Below are positions 40,045 to 63,449 of a stretch of 64,000 nt of DNA, in pieces. The notes below the pieces were generated by a model. That model did not search any database. It was given only the letters and a program-made list of their open reading frames with translations, and had not been told where the DNA came from. The position numbers and the translations under genes are program-made. Where the stretch lies: NCBI GenBank assembly GCA_949292635.1, contig CASEZY010000001.1, forward strand, positions 62,001 to 126,000. Reading direction: 5' to 3'. The stretch's first letter is position 1; each line of letters begins with the position of its first letter. The DNA is from an uncultured Methanomassiliicoccales archaeon (lineage in GTDB: Archaea; Thermoplasmatota; Thermoplasmata; Methanomassiliicoccales; Methanomethylophilaceae).

Positions 40045-41610
40045 ATTACTCAGGCTCAAGAAGAGATCACATGGAGGAACATCGATCCCCGGGTACGTAC
40101 CGTCTCGATGATCGGTATCTTCCTGGCGATGCTGATCGCATGCTTCGACGGAACCATCGTCGGGACCTGCGGTCCATTAATTGCCGCCGACCTCAAAGGG
40201 ACGGATCTTTACTCGTGGATGATCACGGCGTATCTGCTGTGTGAGACCATCATGATCCCCATCGCGGGAAAGCTCTCGGACATGTTCGGAAGGAAGCCCC
40301 TGTTCCTGCTGGGACTGGGACTGTTCATCGTCGGATCCGTCATCGCCGGACTGTCCGTTAACATGCCAATGCTCATCGTCTGCCGTGGCATTCAGGGTAT
40401 CGGCGGAGGTATCCTGATACCCGTGGCCACCGCTGCGGTGGCCGACTTCTATGCGCCGTCCCAGCGTGCCAGGATCCAGGGTGTCATGGGTGCCATCTTC
40501 GGTATCGGAAGCGGTATCGGCCCCCTCATCGGCGGATACATCAACGAGGCCCTCTCCTGGCACTGGATATTCTACATCAACGTCCCCCTGGCCATCGCCA
40601 GCATCCTGCTCACAGTCAAGGAGTTCCCTGCTCCCGCCATCAAGGCCAACCAGCAGGTGGACACCGCCGGGATCTGTCTGCTGACCGTGATGCTGCTGGA
40701 CATCCTGCTGTTCATCGAACTCGGAGGCAAGGAGTTCGAGTGGGTCAGCCCCATAAGCGCGGTGATGATCGCCGTCGCCATAGTGCTGCTGTTCCTGTTC
40801 GTCAAGAGGGAGCGCGTCGCCAGGGACCCCATCCTGGCGCCTCACCTGCTGAAGAATCGCACGGTGGTCATGTCCGCCATGTTCATGGCCATCTACGGTA
40901 TCGGCATGATGGGCGCCATGACGTACTCGTCCATGTTCGCCATCTACATCTTCGGACTCACCGCACTGGAGGCAGGATTCTACTCGCTGGCCCTCGTCGC
41001 AGGCATGATGATAACGTCCATGCTCAGCGGCCACCTGGTGAACCGCACCGGCTACCGCCCCTGGCTGATGATGGGTCCGATACTCTGCTTCATCGGACTG
41101 TACATGATGAGCACCATGGGACTTGGGACCAGCATCGCGTTCTATTGTGCCAGCATCTTCCTGCTCGGTCTTGGACTGGGTTCCATGATGTCTGTGATCA
41201 TGACCGCTGTGCAGAACAGTTCCAAGCCCAGGGAGATGGGTATGACCACCTCCTCCGTCAACCTCATCAGGTCCATCGGCGCCACCATGGGTACCGCCAT
41301 ATTCTCCATGATCATCACTGCGGTGATCACCGGACAGCTGCAGAGCCTGCTGCCTGCGGAGATCTTCGCCATGGTGCCCCATGACACCGGTGTGCTCGAC
41401 ATCGTGGCTGCTGTCCAGGCGGGTGTGCCCGGCTTCGAGGCCTTCGCACCCTACGTCGACAGCATCCTCACCGCCTTCGCCAACAGCGTGGACATGTCCT
41501 TCCTGATTGGCGGAATACTCCTGCTGTTGCTTGTGGTGATCGGTGTGGCCTTCAAGGTCAAGGTTCCCACCGTGGAGGATCTGGAGCACATGGAGGACTC
41601 GGAGGATTGA
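40045..41610 (+). CDS. Drug:H+ antiporter, EmrB/QacA (DHA2) MFS family
   Basis: A 14-helix exporter. Motifs include FDGTIVGTCGPLIAADL, GKLSDMFGRKPLFLLGLGLF (MFS motif A) and GPLIGGYINEALSWHWIFYINVPL (DHA2 motif C/B). AGGTGA at 40035-40040 lies five bases before an ATT codon, and the frame from there (TQAQEEITWRNIDPRVRTVS) looks like a true N-terminus. The first ATG, at 40108, has no ribosome-binding site. I therefore take ATT 40045 as the likely start; ATG 40108 is the conventional alternative. It forms a unit with the MarR gene. Confidence 0.88.
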   Translation: MTQAQEEITWRNIDPRVRTVSMIGIFLAMLIACFDGTIVGTCGPLIAADLKGTDLYSWMITAYLLCETIMIPIAGKLSDMFGRKPLFLLGLGLFIVGSVIAGLSVNMPMLIVCRGIQGIGGGILIPVATAAVADFYAPSQRARIQGVMGAIFGIGSGIGPLIGGYINEALSWHWIFYINVPLAIASILLTVKEFPAPAIKANQQVDTAGICLLTVMLLDILLFIELGGKEFEWVSPISAVMIAVAIVLLFLFVKRERVARDPILAPHLLKNRTVVMSAMFMAIYGIGMMGAMTYSSMFAIYIFGLTALEAGFYSLALVAGMMITSMLSGHLVNRTGYRPWLMMGPILCFIGLYMMSTMGLGTSIAFYCASIFLLGLGLGSMMSVIMTAVQNSSKPREMGMTTSSVNLIRSIGATMGTAIFSMIITAVITGQLQSLLPAEIFAMVPHDTGVLDIVAAVQAGVPGFEAFAPYVDSILTAFANSVDMSFLIGGILLLLLVVIGVAFKVKVPTVEDLEHMEDSED

Positions 41611-41614
41611 TCCT

Positions 41615-41634
41615 CCCGCCGCCCCGGCGGCGGG
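41615..41634 (+). terminator. 9-bp G+C hairpin between exporter and MarR gene
   Basis: CCCGCCGCC and GGCGGCGGG pair around two bases just after the exporter stop. There is no T-run. It could reduce read-through into the marR gene or stabilise the exporter message. Confidence 0.4.
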
Positions 41635-41655
41635 TACCCTCCCAACGAAGAAGAC

Positions 41656-42108
41656 ATGAAAATGGGCTGTGACTGCACCATCGGGGCCAAGCACCCCTCG
41701 GAGTTCAAGAAGTTCGTCCATGCGGCCATGGAGAAGAAGCTGAAGGGCACTGGCATCAGCGTGTCCGCCGCCATGTTCCTCGCGGAATTGGAGGAGGACC
41801 GCGGCATGACCAACCGGGAGCTCACCGAGAGGGTGGGGTTCACCAAGGCCCTCACCACCAGGGTGACCCGGCAGCTGGAGGAGAAGGGGCTGGTGGAGAT
41901 CACCCCCTCCGGCAGGGAATGCAGCATCTCCCTCACCCCCAAGGGAAGGGAGACTAGGGCCATGGCCAGGAGATGCCAGGCGGAGGTTATGGATTACATC
42001 TTCTCAGGTCTCACCGAGGAGGAGCTGGAGTTCCTGAACCACATCCACCGGAAGATGGACGAGCGCATCGACGCCTTCTACGAGGAACAGCGCAGGAAGA
42101 AGGAGTAA
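41656..42108 (+). CDS. MarR-family transcriptional regulator
   Basis: A 150-residue winged-helix regulator. The recognition region is MTNRELTERVGFTKALTTRVTRQLEEKGLVEITPSGRECSISLTPKGRE, a typical MarR wHTH with wing. The N-terminus has a CDC pair, possibly redox-sensitive. It lies downstream of the exporter, and the 14-base palindrome at the exporter promoter is its likely target. It is followed immediately by dus, one base away. Confidence 0.9.
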   Translation: MKMGCDCTIGAKHPSEFKKFVHAAMEKKLKGTGISVSAAMFLAELEEDRGMTNRELTERVGFTKALTTRVTRQLEEKGLVEITPSGRECSISLTPKGRETRAMARRCQAEVMDYIFSGLTEEELEFLNHIHRKMDERIDAFYEEQRRKKE

Positions 42109-43623: not shown

Positions 43624-43635
43624 CGAACATGTTCG
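43624..43635. promoter_or_regulatory. Palindrome CGAACATGTTCG before the methyltransferase gene
   Basis: A perfect 12-base palindrome 74 bases before the ATG of the methylcobamide methyltransferase. The identical palindrome stands at 45504-45515 before the MFS gene. Candidate operator for the HTH regulator between them. Confidence 0.65.
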
Positions 43636-43709
43636 TAATGTCTGTTAAGCCATCATAAGCCGTGCTAATGTGTGGCAAAGACAGAGGGATCGACCCGGAG
43701 TGATGTGAT

Positions 43710-44741
43710 ATGGCAGAATACACACCAAAGGAGAGATTCCAAATCGCAATCAAGGGCCAGAAGGCGGACCGTCCCCCGGTCTGCGGTATGACCACGGCCG
43801 GTACCACCGAACTCATGGACTTCACCGGCGCGGCATGGCCCGAGGTCCACGTGGACGCCAAACTGATGGCGAAACTTGGACTGGGGATGTACCCCTTCGT
43901 TGGACTCGAGTCCATAAGGATCCCGTACTGCCTCACCTACGAGGTCGAGGCACTGGGCGGAACGGTGGATCTTGGAAAGAAGAACTCCACGCCCATGGTA
44001 AAGGGAAGCCCGTTCCACGGGAACCCGGATCCGGATTTCGAGCTGATGAGCCCGGAGGAGATGCTGAAGATCCCCAGAAACAAGGTCATCCTGGATGCCG
44101 CGGAGATCATCAACAAGGACCCGCTGTCCAAGGAGCTGCCCACCCTGCTGGGAGTCACCGGACCGTTCACCATCGCCGGACACCTGGCCGGGACCGAGTC
44201 CCTGATCCTGTGGACCATCACCGAGCCCGACGTCACCAAGACGTTCACCAAGTTCACCAGCGAGTACGAGAGGATGTGGCTGGAGCACGTGGAGACCATC
44301 GGGTTCGATTCGATCCAGATGTCCGAACCCACCGCCTCCTACGACATGATCTCCCCGGAGATGTTCGAGGAGTTCGCCGCCCCCAACCTGCGCTGGGTCT
44401 ACGAGCCGCTGAAGGAGACCAAGAAGGTCCTGCACATCTGCGGCAACATGCTCCCCATGCTGGACGAGATGATATCTTCCAACGCGGACGGATTGTCCCT
44501 GGAGGAGAAGACCGACCCCTACAAAGCGGTGGAGAAGAACGCCGGAAGGTGCGCCCTGGTCGGAAACGTGGGTGTCGTGAGCCCGCTGCTGCAGGGAACT
44601 CCTGAGGATGTTGCCAGGGACGCGGTAAGAAGCGCGGATGCCGGATTCAACATCATCTCCGCAGGATGCGGACTGTCCGCACTGATCAAGAAGGAGAACC
44701 TGAAAGCGATGGCGGATGCCATCAAGGCCTACAGGTACTGA
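43710..44741 (+). CDS. Methylcobamide:CoM methyltransferase (MtaA/MtbA family)
   Basis: A 343-residue member of the uroporphyrinogen decarboxylase superfamily that moves a methyl group from a corrinoid protein to coenzyme M. The zinc ligands H242-x-C244 (LHICGN) and C320 (SAGCGLS) match the H-x-C-xn-C site of MtaA/MtbA. GGAGTGATGTGAT precedes the ATG. Whether the corrinoid partner is for methanol (MtaA), methylamines (MtbA) or another substrate cannot be told; no MtxB or MtxC gene is nearby. A regulator and a transporter adjoin it. Confidence 0.87.
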   Translation: MAEYTPKERFQIAIKGQKADRPPVCGMTTAGTTELMDFTGAAWPEVHVDAKLMAKLGLGMYPFVGLESIRIPYCLTYEVEALGGTVDLGKKNSTPMVKGSPFHGNPDPDFELMSPEEMLKIPRNKVILDAAEIINKDPLSKELPTLLGVTGPFTIAGHLAGTESLILWTITEPDVTKTFTKFTSEYERMWLEHVETIGFDSIQMSEPTASYDMISPEMFEEFAAPNLRWVYEPLKETKKVLHICGNMLPMLDEMISSNADGLSLEEKTDPYKAVEKNAGRCALVGNVGVVSPLLQGTPEDVARDAVRSADAGFNIISAGCGLSALIKKENLKAMADAIKAYRY

Positions 44742-44774
44742 GGGTCACACCCATGATTCTCCCGCAAACCCCTT

Positions 44775-45464
44775 TCACCCTATCTTTTCTATGTCCGGTG
44801 CGTGGTTCAGGAACGAGTTGATCACCTTCCGCTCCGCGCTACGGATGATCACGGACATCGTGGATTTGGATAATTCGAAGCTCTCCGCCAGCTGGTCCAC
44901 GCCGATCCTCCTGGGCACGTCGTAGTAGCCGCTGTCGAAGGCGAAGCGCAACACCTCGTACTGCTTGGGAGTGAGCACCCCCTCAGTCTCCACTGAGGTT
45001 GACTGGCACTTGTCGACATTGAACCCTGCGTGGCGGATCCTCTCCACCAGCTTGTTGATCATGATGCTATTGGGGGCCAGCAGATGCCATTCGGTCACGT
45101 AGTCATTGTACGGCACGGCGCGGATCATGAACACCCCGGACTCCGCTATCAGCTGTGCCAGACGGCAGTTGTTGTTGAGGACGATGGCCAGGTAGTGGTT
45201 GTTTGAAACCTTGGTTATGGCGTACTCGCCGAGCAGACTGGCAGTGGTGTTCATGGTGATCTTGGACCCGTTGGTGCCCTTGGGGTCGGTGATGCGGATC
45301 AGCGAACGGCCCATGCCGTCACCGAGATATGAGCAGCGGATTACCTCCACCTTCACCCCCCCCCCTCCATCCCACACCTGGATGGGCAGGAGCATATGGC
45401 AGGCGTTACCCACCGGCCTCTTCCCCTCTATCCTCCTGTCCACCACGATACGCGCGAAATGCAT
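44775..45464 (-). CDS. HTH_10 (bacterioopsin-activator type) transcriptional regulator
   Basis: A 229-residue protein. Residues 1-160 are a sensor-like region without a recognised domain (MHFARIVVDRRIEG onward). The C-terminus LTPKQYEVLRFAFDSGYYDVPRRIGVDQLAESFELSKSTMSVIIRSAERKVI is the Bat-type HTH_10. Such regulators in methyl-using methanogens often control nearby methyltransferase genes. ATG 45464 was chosen because upstream in-frame sequence lacks coding character. It lies between the methyltransferase and the MFS gene, both of which carry the same palindrome. Confidence 0.88.
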   Translation of the reverse strand: MHFARIVVDRRIEGKRPVGNACHMLLPIQVWDGGGGVKVEVIRCSYLGDGMGRSLIRITDPKGTNGSKITMNTTASLLGEYAITKVSNNHYLAIVLNNNCRLAQLIAESGVFMIRAVPYNDYVTEWHLLAPNSIMINKLVERIRHAGFNVDKCQSTSVETEGVLTPKQYEVLRFAFDSGYYDVPRRIGVDQLAESFELSKSTMSVIIRSAERKVINSFLNHAPDIEKIG

Positions 45465-45503
45465 TGCAATCACTAAATGACCAGTCCTAAAAATAGGATG
45501 ATA

Positions 45504-45515
45504 CGAACATGTTCG
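45504..45515. promoter_or_regulatory. Palindrome CGAACATGTTCG before the MFS gene
   Basis: Identical to the element at 43624-43635. It lies between the divergent regulator and MFS genes, 12 bases upstream of a rightward TATA-like CTTATACAT (45525-45533 region) and about 10 bases from a leftward CTATTTTTAG box that could serve the regulator. Confidence 0.65.
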
Positions 45516-45595
45516 CGGTCTCCGCCTTATACATAGCAACCCCATGTGAACCCAAGGTTTGCTTCCCCTGTCTTTGCCGTGATAGAGGGATACAA

Positions 45596-46900
45596 ATGAC
45601 AATCAACCCAGAAGAGAAGAAGAAGGTGTTCAGCTACCGCTGGATCATCTTCATCGTGCTGGCGATAGCCTACTTCTTCGTATACTTCCACAGGACCACC
45701 GGAGGTGCGATCTCCGGTATGATGCAGGACGCATTCAGCGTCGGTCCTGCGGCGGTGGCATTGCTGGCATCGGCATATCTCTATGCATACACGCTGATGC
45801 AGTTACCCAGCGGTATCCTCACCGACAAGTTCGGACCGAGGAAGGCCGCTTCCGTGTTCATCATCCTGCTCGCGATCGGTTCGGTGCTCTGCGCCCTGGC
45901 GGAGCCGATGAACAACTTCAACATAATGATCGCAGGAAAGTTCGTCATCGGTATCGGTGCGGCGGTCATCTACATCCCGATTATGAAGGTGCTGGCCGTC
46001 TGGTACAAGAAGGACGAATTCGCATCCATGAGCGGCATCCTGCTACTGGTGGGTAACGTCGGAGGAATCGCCGCCGCCACCCCCATGGTCATCATGATGG
46101 AGAACCTGGGCATCGACGGCACCTACTACGTGCTCGCGGCCATCACCGCCATCATCGGTGTGCTGACCTATGTCCTCGTACGCAACCACCCCAAAGAGAT
46201 GGGTCTGCCCTCCATCGAGGAGATCGTCTCCGAGGAGACCGGAGAGCCCATCACCGAGTCCACCTCCGAGAAGATCCCCATGATGGTGGCACTGAAGAAG
46301 ACCTTCTCCAGCGGACTGAACTTCTGGCCCCTGGCCATCTGGTTCTTCTGCATATACGGGACCATCATGCTCTGGCAGGCCTCCCAGGCCGGCGGATTCT
46401 ACTTCAACGTGGGCGGATACGCCACCGGCGAATACGCACTGTTCATCACCATGGTGGGTGTGGGAATGGTCTTCGGATGCCCCCTGGCGGGTATGCTGTC
46501 AGATAAGGTCCTCAAATCCAGGAAGAAGGTGCTGATCGTCGGTACCGTTATGTACACGATCATCTGGGCAGTGATATGGCTGACAGCCGGCAACGCGGAC
46601 ATCTTGCAGAACAACATAATCCAGATGGCGATCAACTTCCTCTTCGGATTCTTCGGCGGATTCTTCGTGGTGTCCTACGCCCAGATCAAGGAGCTGTTCC
46701 CGGTGGGTATGGCAGGTACGTCCACGGCGGCACTCAACCTGTTCCCCTTCGCCGGAGGCGCCATCCTGATCACCATCGCCGGATTCATGGTGTCCAACAG
46801 CACCCTGGCCGAGTATCAAACGGTGTGGATGATGGCCTTCATCCTGATGGTCATCGGCTGCGTCTGCGCATTCCTATCAAAAGAGAAAGCAAGGAACTGA
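45596..46900 (+). CDS. MFS transporter (12 helices)
   Basis: A 434-residue major facilitator with motif A variant GILTDKFGPRKAASVFI after helix 2, a central loop (residues 205-235) and a second half beginning at FWPLAIWFFCIYG. It resembles organic-anion/sugar-phosphate type MFS carriers. GAGGGATACAA precedes ATG 45596. Its palindrome and the neighbouring methyltransferase and regulator suggest that it imports the methylated substrate, or a related compound. It is closed by an intrinsic terminator. Confidence 0.87.
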   Translation: MTINPEEKKKVFSYRWIIFIVLAIAYFFVYFHRTTGGAISGMMQDAFSVGPAAVALLASAYLYAYTLMQLPSGILTDKFGPRKAASVFIILLAIGSVLCALAEPMNNFNIMIAGKFVIGIGAAVIYIPIMKVLAVWYKKDEFASMSGILLLVGNVGGIAAATPMVIMMENLGIDGTYYVLAAITAIIGVLTYVLVRNHPKEMGLPSIEEIVSEETGEPITESTSEKIPMMVALKKTFSSGLNFWPLAIWFFCIYGTIMLWQASQAGGFYFNVGGYATGEYALFITMVGVGMVFGCPLAGMLSDKVLKSRKKVLIVGTVMYTIIWAVIWLTAGNADILQNNIIQMAINFLFGFFGGFFVVSYAQIKELFPVGMAGTSTAALNLFPFAGGAILITIAGFMVSNSTLAEYQTVWMMAFILMVIGCVCAFLSKEKARN

Positions 46901-61081: not shown

Positions 61082-62050
61082 TCAGACATAGGTGCTCACA
61101 TAACCGAGGAATGGCTGTGCGTTGGCACCGTAAAGATCGGAGTGGAGGCCCCCTATGCTCCATCCGGGGGCTGTGGTCTCGCAGAAGTAGTATGTCGCAC
61201 CCCCCTTCATGACGGAAAAGACCGAGGTACCGCTGACCGTAGATGAAAGACTGACGCCCGCCATGGCATGTGACGGCATGAGAATGATGCAAGCCCCGGT
61301 GATGTAGTCGGCGGGAGCGAAGACCCTGTCATCCTGATATGTGAGCGTGCTCATACAGTCGTAGACCGCCGCCAACAGGAGGGAGGAATCCTCGCAGTCC
61401 CCCTTGCCGATATAGAGGGACTCCACAGGCAAGCACCAGTATTCACCCTGGCCGTGAGTCACCACATCATCCTCGTATTCGATAGCGTTGGAGACGAAGG
61501 ACAGCAGATAGTTCGCGAAGGACTCGGCGTTGCCGTAGCGCTGCATGTTCTGAGTACTCGAACTCAAGAAGTCCGAATACTCCTTCCACAAAGCGTCGCA
61601 CAGTTTCGTCACCGTTCTTCCGACCACCACGTACTCCGAAACGGCATGCGTGGTGGAACTGCTCTGCTCGAATGCCGACCCCTCACGGGGGAGGGTGCTG
61701 GAGTTGGCGGCGTTCAGATCTGCCTCGTCGATGGTCAGCGATATCGAGAACGTATGCGCCTGCGTCGACGGATCGGTGATTCCGGGCACGGTCCATGAAT
61801 ATGATTTGTCCAGGTCGGTGTGCTGAGGTGTGGGGGATACCGGGTTCAAGAACCCGGTGACCATGGGCACCACCAGCATCACGCAGAGTGCCAGTATCAG
61901 CAGGGTAATCAGCGAACCGCCGCGGCCCTGTTCCTGCGGAGACGCCTGATTGGGGTCCACCCAATCCGAATCGGACAGCGTACGCCCGCAACGACGACAG
62001 AAGCTGTCGGTGTCGTCCCAGAGGGATCCGCATTCGGGGCACCTGCGCAT
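61082..62050 (-). CDS. Zinc-ribbon membrane protein with transglutaminase-like domain
   Basis: A 322-residue protein with an N-terminal zinc ribbon (CPECG...CRRCG), one membrane helix (about residues 46-67) and a C-terminal domain. GKGDCEDSSLLLAAVYD has the cysteine and acidic pattern of transglutaminase-like cysteine proteases; PSHAMAGV gives a later histidine. It is probably an extracellular domain anchored in the membrane. Start at the ATG 62050; it is divergent from cca. Confidence 0.78.
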   Translation of the reverse strand: MRRCPECGSLWDDTDSFCRRCGRTLSDSDWVDPNQASPQEQGRGGSLITLLILALCVMLVVPMVTGFLNPVSPTPQHTDLDKSYSWTVPGITDPSTQAHTFSISLTIDEADLNAANSSTLPREGSAFEQSSSTTHAVSEYVVVGRTVTKLCDALWKEYSDFLSSSTQNMQRYGNAESFANYLLSFVSNAIEYEDDVVTHGQGEYWCLPVESLYIGKGDCEDSSLLLAAVYDCMSTLTYQDDRVFAPADYITGACIILMPSHAMAGVSLSSTVSGTSVFSVMKGGATYYFCETTAPGWSIGGLHSDLYGANAQPFLGYVSTYV

Positions 62051-62126
62051 GTTCCACAATCTACGGCGTGATATTAAAACGTGGCACGACGAACGTATAA
62101 TTATCGTGAACCGCATCGCGTGGGAC

Positions 62127-63449
62127 ATGGAGCCCGAGGATGAGGTGCTCAGACGCATCGTCCCCACCCCCGAGGAGTGTGGGGAGATCGTCGGCACGGC
62201 GGAGAGCCTGAAGAAGGCCGCAGAGGAGTATTTCGCGGCCAAGGGCATCGACGTCTCCGTCAGATACGTGGGCTCGGTGGCCAAGGGCACCTTCCTCAGG
62301 GACCCCGATGTCGATCTGTTCATCATGTTCCCGGAGTCCGTGCCCAAGACGGATATGGAGCGCCTGGGCATCGAGGCGGGCATCGACCTCATCGACGGCC
62401 GCATGATGTATGCGGAACACCCGTACACCACCGGCAACTATCGGGGGCTCTCAGTGGATCTTGTTCCCTGCTATGCCGTGGATTCCGCTGAGCACCTGCA
62501 GACCTCGGTGGACCGCACCCCGTTCCATACCGATTACATACTGTCGCACACGGACCCCACCCTCAGGGACCAGATGAGACTGACCAAGAAGTTCATGAAG
62601 GGCATCGGCACCTACGGCGCCGAACCCGATGTGAGGGGATTCTCGGGATACCTGTGCGAGGTGCTCACCCTGCACTACGGAGGATTCAGGGAACTGCTGA
62701 AGGCCGCGTCGTCCTGGAGGGAAGGCACGGTCATCGTCCAGGAGAAAAGGGGCCCGGACATGGACGCTCCGCTGGTGCTGTACGACCCGGTGGACCGCAA
62801 GAGGAATGTGGCATCCGCGGTGCACCTGGACACCATGTGCCGCTTCATCATGGCCGCACGCGAGTATCTGGCACATCCTGACCTCAAGTTCTTCTTCCCC
62901 TCACCCCGCAAACTGATGGACAGGGAGGAGGTCATGAGGACCATAGAGGAACGTGGCACAAGATTCCTGACGGTCACCTTCTCCAACCCCGGCATAATAG
63001 AGGAGAACCTGCAGGCCCAGATCTGGAAGAGCCAGTACGCACTGCTTCGCAGGTTGGGGGAGAACGGCTTCGGTCCGCTGATGGCCGCCCACGGCTACGA
63101 CAACGACCGCGTGACCATCATCTTCGAGATGGAGAGGGACGTTCTGTCCAAGCTCCACCGCCACGCAGGCCCGCCTGTGTGGATCGGCACGTCATCCAAC
63201 TTCCTGGAGAAGTGGAAGGACAACCCCTGCGGCCAGCCCTTCATAGAGGCTGGCAGATGGAACGTCGTCGCCGAACGCGGTCTTCGCACCGCCCCGGAGG
63301 TATTGGCGTCGGAGATACACAGGTCCGGCATCGGCAAGGACCTGGATCAGAGCTCTGTATGCTTCACCGGCCACGATGGAACGGTGGCGGAAGGGGATCT
63401 GGCACTCCTCACCGAGATACTCGATCCCAGGGAACCCTGGGAGTTCTGA
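62127..63449 (+). CDS. cca: CCA-adding enzyme, archaeal class I tRNA nucleotidyltransferase
   Basis: A 440-residue enzyme adding or repairing the 3' CCA of tRNA. RYVGSVAKGTFLRDPDVDLFIMFP has the nucleotidyltransferase GS...DxD motif; the third carboxylate is in LSVDLVPCY. The neck and tail domains follow. ATG 62127 fits a TATA box (GTATAATTA) about 26 bases upstream; a GTG at 62106 is the alternative. Some tRNA genes here (tRNA-Pro) lack an encoded CCA and depend on it. Confidence 0.94.
   Translation: MEPEDEVLRRIVPTPEECGEIVGTAESLKKAAEEYFAAKGIDVSVRYVGSVAKGTFLRDPDVDLFIMFPESVPKTDMERLGIEAGIDLIDGRMMYAEHPYTTGNYRGLSVDLVPCYAVDSAEHLQTSVDRTPFHTDYILSHTDPTLRDQMRLTKKFMKGIGTYGAEPDVRGFSGYLCEVLTLHYGGFRELLKAASSWREGTVIVQEKRGPDMDAPLVLYDPVDRKRNVASAVHLDTMCRFIMAAREYLAHPDLKFFFPSPRKLMDREEVMRTIEERGTRFLTVTFSNPGIIEENLQAQIWKSQYALLRRLGENGFGPLMAAHGYDNDRVTIIFEMERDVLSKLHRHAGPPVWIGTSSNFLEKWKDNPCGQPFIEAGRWNVVAERGLRTAPEVLASEIHRSGIGKDLDQSSVCFTGHDGTVAEGDLALLTEILDPREPWEF

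Follow-up and report, generated by a model that had tools for sequence, protein, structure and literature searches.

Do two identical palindromes around a methyltransferase, a regulator and a transporter gene mark a small regulon, and if so, which protein would read them? The question is raised by a locus in the genome of an uncultured Methanomassiliicoccales archaeon, of which we analysed a stretch of 64,000 nucleotides (the window; coordinates below are positions in it). A preliminary description had proposed such a regulon, with the regulator gene in its middle and a link to methyl metabolism. That observation is right and stronger than was claimed, and the same locus holds, beyond what was described, a second, covarying pair of leader elements (E and E').

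Genes of the locus

Domain and family searches bore out the three gene identities proposed earlier. The first gene (43710..44741, + strand, 343 aa) encodes a methylcobamide:CoM methyltransferase of the MtaA/CmuA family (URO-D family), for which the nearest solved structure is 4ay7. The enzyme belongs to the same family as MtaA, the methanol methylcobamide:CoM methyltransferase, and passes the PRK06252 subfamily cut-off, but unlike MtaA it falls below the cut-off of 400 for the MtaA equivalog NF040654 of NCBIfam, with 290.6 bits. The other close family member in the genome (L199 on contig C5, a few kb from a corrinoid gene) likewise falls below 400, with 302.7 bits. The genome has eight URO-D and four B12-binding_2 matches, and in the window no corrinoid gene adjoining the methyltransferase was found. 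On contig C6 of this genome (G000), at ~61400-63150, a corrinoid protein gene is followed by a divergent URO-D gene (L210), a possible further methyltransferase pair.

The regulator gene (44775..45464, - strand) encodes 229 aa that match PF04967 (HTH_10) with 68.0 bits (cut-off 23.1), the sole domain found by Pfam, and a family search of the genome gave no HTH_10 gene beyond this one. Alignments of 16 and of 18 sequences show three cysteines (C22, C44 and C100) without any substitution, a hint that the protein may sense a metal or a thiol. A fold search with the predicted structure (pLDDT 83.7, pTM 0.65) returned no convincing N-terminal match; its five matches with E<0.001 all have TM-scores of at most 0.25, and we draw no function from them. 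Inside the gene lies a run of ten C at 45356-45365 (ten G on the coding strand), where the protein exceeds 14 of 15 aligned relatives by one to three residues; the run could be a slippage off-switch or a spot of sequencing error. The third gene (45596..46900, + strand, 434 aa) encodes an MFS transporter that is kin to the MFS gene of the Methanosarcina corrinoid-methyltransferase-MFS operon. Elsewhere in the window, 40108-42108 holds a gene for an EmrB-type DHA2 efflux transporter, which scores above the cut-off of TIGR00711, and after it a regulator gene of the MarR family.

Distribution of the palindrome

The 12-base palindrome CGAACATGTTCG, which is given without strand, occurs upstream of the methyltransferase promoter (43624..43635) and again at a place common to the divergent regulator and MFS promoters (45504..45515), confirming two exact copies, each near a promoter. 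A scan of the organism's own genome (1,482,705 bases in 21 contigs) found these two exact copies, both at the methyltransferase-regulator-MFS locus, and none of the reversed control pattern. Many unrelated copies, which the preliminary description had taken as the sign of a mistaken reading, were looked for in this genome and are not there, and the lack of any exact copy elsewhere in it supports the small regulon, regulator in the middle, with its methyl-metabolism link. Sites with one mismatch number 12, of which 11 are within open frames of at least 250 aa and the last (L195) could not be placed in or between genes. In the window, 15 matches with up to two mismatches stand against 2.5 expected; we give this excess little weight, because placement was checked for the one-mismatch genome sites alone, nearly all of which are in genes.

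Across the family, 42 of 100 genomes have the exact 12-mer and none has the reversed control. All 63 exact sites in family genomes other than the organism's own were retrieved, with genes called by a mechanical caller. For 26 of them the locus has a strong match for the MFS transporter or the regulator. Of these 26, 22 stand between genes, and four fall within reading frames that we doubt: one in a regulator-MFS read-through, one in a frame of 62 aa and two in an extended regulator frame. The remaining 37 are unlinked, 29 inside genes and eight intergenic; among the eight, the site in L068 lies ahead of a permease/URO-D operon that has a regulator relative next to it, and that in L078 lies ahead of a methyltransferase gene. 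On the counts in the organism's own genome, in the family genomes and of intergenic placement, we reject a chance origin of the twin palindromes. An SOS-box-like identity was also rejected, as the spacing differs from that of the SOS-box-like site GAAC-N4-GTTC.

Promoter anatomy

When 28 promoters hand-chosen from linked loci were aligned on the palindrome, A+T content at +10 to +16 was 86, 79, 96, 100, 79, 86 and 71%, and a TATA-like word starts +10 to +13 after the palindrome in 25 of them (at 8, 15 and 15 in the rest). This set leaves out L084, three Methanothrix loci, the promoters of L079 and the regulator-facing sides; TATA spacing in L084 and the three Methanothrix promoters is unlike that of the 28. 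In the window, the putative TATA-like word of the methyltransferase unit, assigned by its position 10 bases after the palindrome, is the weak TTAAGCC (43645..43651, + strand), in whose place a relative (L082) has TTATACC. The predicted words of the other two genes are at 45488..45495 (- strand) for the regulator, 9 bases from the shared palindrome, and at 45527..45535 (+ strand; TTATACATA) for the MFS gene. Archaeal activators commonly sit just upstream of the TATA region, and by its placement the palindrome can be read as an upstream-of-TATA, activator-type element, able to serve the methyltransferase, MFS and regulator promoters. Because the copy at 45504 also lies so near the regulator's own TATA-like word, the regulator is likely to be autoregulated, and the locus would be a small autoregulated HTH_10 regulon.

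Palindrome and regulator in relatives

A relative of the regulator was found in 33 of the 100 family genomes. Among 80 named MFS loci, 21 have the regulator (>140 bits), all of them together with a methyltransferase, and the exact palindrome is present in 11 of these 21 versus six of the other 59. Three arrangements occur. The first is that of the window, with the methyltransferase, the regulator on the opposite strand and the MFS gene; the second runs regulator, MFS, corrinoid protein, methyltransferase; and in both, palindromes are found ahead of the MFS gene and also ahead of the unit that encodes the methyltransferase or the corrinoid protein. In the third, found with more distant regulators (L068, L088-L092 and L094), an amino-acid permease and another URO-D protein replace the MFS pair, the URO-D gene being beside the permease in most. 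The site before the permease operon is the exact palindrome in L068, GGACATGTTCG (one or two copies) in L088-L091, CGGACATGTCCG in L092 and TTGACATGTCAA in L094. Since palindromes of the same core thus stand beside permease operons of regulator relatives, the ACATGT core tracks the regulator family, not one transporter, and the permease loci may form a sister regulon with a swapped transporter.

The association has its exceptions. Methanomassiliicoccus-type MFS/methyltransferase/regulator loci (L127-L129, L136, L151, L154 and L160) have no exact palindrome; near copies, which may be chance matches, precede the MFS gene in L129 (AAACATGTTCG) and L136 (CGAACATGTACG), and the other five have a half site at most. 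When up to two mismatches were allowed, 14 of the 34 loci that carry the regulator had no intergenic site listed. Three of these do hold a site (L079 in the extended frame, L087 with CGAACATATTCG, and L094), and in 11 of the 34 no near palindrome could be linked to the locus. One locus with the genes present (L096) is without the exact palindrome and without E/E'.

Relation to known systems

A system that invites comparison is the four-gene mtpCAP-msrH locus of Methanosarcina acetivorans, for which the primary paper is reportedly that of Fu and Metcalf in 2015. A passage of PMC7374477 describes this locus as required for growth on methylmercaptopropionate. Like it, the window has an MFS transporter and a linked regulator, together with a CoM methyltransferase that is a possible but distant counterpart of MtpA, and other members of the family, those with regulator-MFS-corrinoid-methyltransferase loci, also encode a corrinoid protein. 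In contrast to it, the window has no adjacent corrinoid protein (MtpC), and its regulator is of the HTH_10 family, whereas in L144 the Methanosarcina operon is followed by a FilR1/ArsR-like gene (FilR1_middle), which we infer from its place to be that of MsrH. In an alignment search with the window protein first, the Methanosarcina MFS genes (L143-L146) were 47-49% identical, an MtpP-like feature, and in these four loci the genes run corrinoid, methyltransferase, MFS. The kinship of the methyltransferases is distant, with the Methanosarcina genes matching at 145-174 bits versus >500 for most family members. Of the 80 named MFS loci, ten have the order corrinoid-methyltransferase-MFS, and every one of these belongs to a Methanosarcina-type genome. 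In the MFS tree the ten group together inside a clade of 27 rows (support 97/88), which also includes Methanothrix MFS genes and Methanomassiliicoccus MFS genes with an HTH_10 regulator and methyltransferase; the window protein is outside this clade. By analogy, the window locus may work like mtpCAP with another regulator, while departing from membership in its regulator family and in the adjacent corrinoid gene.

The resemblance to mtpCAP makes methylmercaptopropionate or another methylthio compound our best guess for the substrate. The ISO4-H5 pathway figure includes MtsA/MtsB for methyl-3-methylthiopropionate (PMC5011839), and Methanomethylophilus alvi has mtsAB homologues but does not use dimethylsulfide (PMC10673518).

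The palindrome as probable operator of the HTH_10 protein

With a probability of roughly 0.75, we read the palindrome as the operator of the HTH_10 protein, which would activate the methyltransferase gene, the MFS gene and its own gene for the use of a methylated substrate. From the sites, genes, conservation and spacing we infer a course in which an HTH_10 dimer would bind the palindrome about 10 bases upstream of the TATA box, recruit the transcription machinery and so turn on transcription of all three. The trigger would be the methylated substrate, or a thiol or redox signal, at the cysteine-bearing N-terminal domain of the regulator. The MFS transporter would then import the substrate, and its methyl group would pass to coenzyme M through the methyltransferase and a corrinoid protein whose gene lies elsewhere.

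Two other readings of the palindrome compete with this one. That another, more widely shared DNA-binding protein binds it, the HTH_10 protein acting elsewhere, would account for three Methanothrix loci (L130, L132 and L156) in which the exact palindrome stands ~90 bases before the start of an MFS relative. No HTH_10 gene was found in these genomes, which may be incomplete, nor was a methyltransferase found near their MFS genes. In the Methanothrix loci, however, the spacing to the TATA-like word differs, and in the family the site occurs with the HTH_10 gene in three arrangements of the locus and beside transporters of two families, and it has decayed where a regulator relative is present in the genome but not adjacent (L240). 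We consider binding by another protein improbable, and the least probable of the readings weighed here. Slightly less improbable, and still unlikely, is that the HTH_10 protein is the reader but works as a repressor lifted by the substrate, since autoregulation at a common divergent promoter is also typical of repressors. Against this, in 25 of the 28 promoters the site stands upstream of the TATA-like word at a constant gap and overlaps neither the word nor the predicted start. An activator precedent also exists in the upstream activator sequence of Halobacterium bop, which is regulated by Bat, the bacterio-opsin activator. The window regulator resembles Bat in its HTH_10 family and in a site upstream of the TATA box; Bat carries a sensory PAS/GAF domain, whereas Pfam finds no PAS or GAF domain in the window regulator.

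Covarying leader elements

Besides the putative operator, the locus has two elements that may form a second, RNA-level link between the methyltransferase and MFS mRNAs. Element E (GGCAAAGACAG; 43674..43684, + strand) is placed where the methyltransferase mRNA is predicted to begin, and E' (CTGTCTTTGCC; 45568..45578, + strand), its exact reverse complement, lies shortly before the ribosome-binding region of the MFS leader. The genome has a third exact GGCAAAGACAG on C5, about one being expected at that length. Across loci, E begins ~37-41 bases downstream of the palindrome, at the point where transcription would be expected to start given the TATA spacing, and E' ends 11-27 bases (mostly 11-21) before the MFS start codon, with a purine-rich ribosome-binding stretch just downstream. 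Both elements differ between genera while their complementarity is kept, as in L073 (GGGCAAAGACTTC / GAAGTCTTTGCCC), L066 (GGCAATCGGAGGC / GCCTCCGATTGCC), L084 (GGGCAAGGGTAGG / CCTACCCTTGCCC) and L240 (GGCAGAATAGGA / TCCTATTCTGCC).

The leader pairing score over 19 loci averages 10.9 for own pairs versus 6.6 for swapped ones, and none of 20000 permutations scored as high; nor did any of 100000, either for 22 loci or for 17 representatives. A locus's own pair is the unique best in just eight of the 22 rows, the ties being largely with near relatives that have the same element. Weak rows in this ungapped score are L080 (a bulge), L121, L096 and L070, the last of which is low owing to a shortened leader, the whole leader having been used in the 19-locus test. 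A count of paired cells, taken at 13 positions in each of 19 loci, gave 222 out of 247 (216 Watson-Crick, six G-U), against a mean of 144.5 and a maximum of 184 in 5000 permutations of the rows; for this count the 13-base windows were placed by hand, and L096 (score 8, at chance level, with no pairing found) and the near-duplicates L074 and L087 were left out. Thirteen loci were searched for further 13-mers of their own that pair as well as E/E', and eight of them have none; the window locus has 14, and L077 has 1009, a one-base bulge breaking its ungapped count.

Direct pairing of the two mRNAs, presumably made together, is suggested as the simplest cause of this covariation. We give about even odds to a model in which the methyltransferase mRNA, through its first 11-15 bases, pairs just upstream of the ribosome-binding site in the transporter mRNA, so that the methyltransferase message would tune transporter synthesis, the pair being kept by compensatory change across genera and in two gene orders. 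Three observations speak against RNA pairing: A-C mismatches outnumber G-U pairs, L096 lacks the elements, and no pairing was found in non-neighbouring or divergent units. The MFS leaders of G033 and G072, with no methyltransferase nearby, do not match a distant corrinoid leader (7 bp), the divergent pair of L242 has no leader match (8 bp), and the window MFS leader does not match the C6 corrinoid leader (6 bp). As these trans tests were negative, E/E' pairing is seen solely where the units neighbour each other in one direction, presumably also in L075/L245, where a contig end places the two leaders on different contigs of the assembly. A possible variant is therefore pairing in cis within a read-through transcript instead of between two mRNAs.

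The elements could also be a DNA site that a second regulator binds, present in two copies of opposite orientation, with no RNA duplex formed, an explanation that we hold to be possible though rather doubtful. It draws on the mismatches, whose bias is not towards pairs that RNA tolerates (13 A-C versus only six G-U). It fits less well with the strong differences in E among loci of a single genus label (L059, L061, L066 and L070 of g4), each pair of which is complementary, or with the sister genomes L073 and L075/L245, which differ by compensatory changes in both partners at two positions and by a G-U pair at a third. The positions of E at the predicted mRNA 5' end and of E' shortly before the MFS start codon likewise speak against a DNA site. 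Regulatory mRNA-mRNA pairs are named in PMC12559287, namely irvA-gbpC, hly-prsA2 and vigR-folD. These too are two mRNAs with complementary stretches, but they are bacterial, while the covariation seen here links, across genera, two leaders that belong to a single archaeal regulon.

Significance for methyl-compound use

A literature search found no description of this operator or leader pair, and nothing on the regulation of methyl-compound use in gut and rumen Methanomassiliicoccales, most subscription papers having been outside its reach; such regulation appears to be little described. For these archaea, the locus brings together a regulator, its predicted operator and targets and a likely substrate class as one testable package. 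If the covarying leader pair does reflect RNA pairing, it would provide a comparative-genomic case for an archaeal mRNA-mRNA switch.
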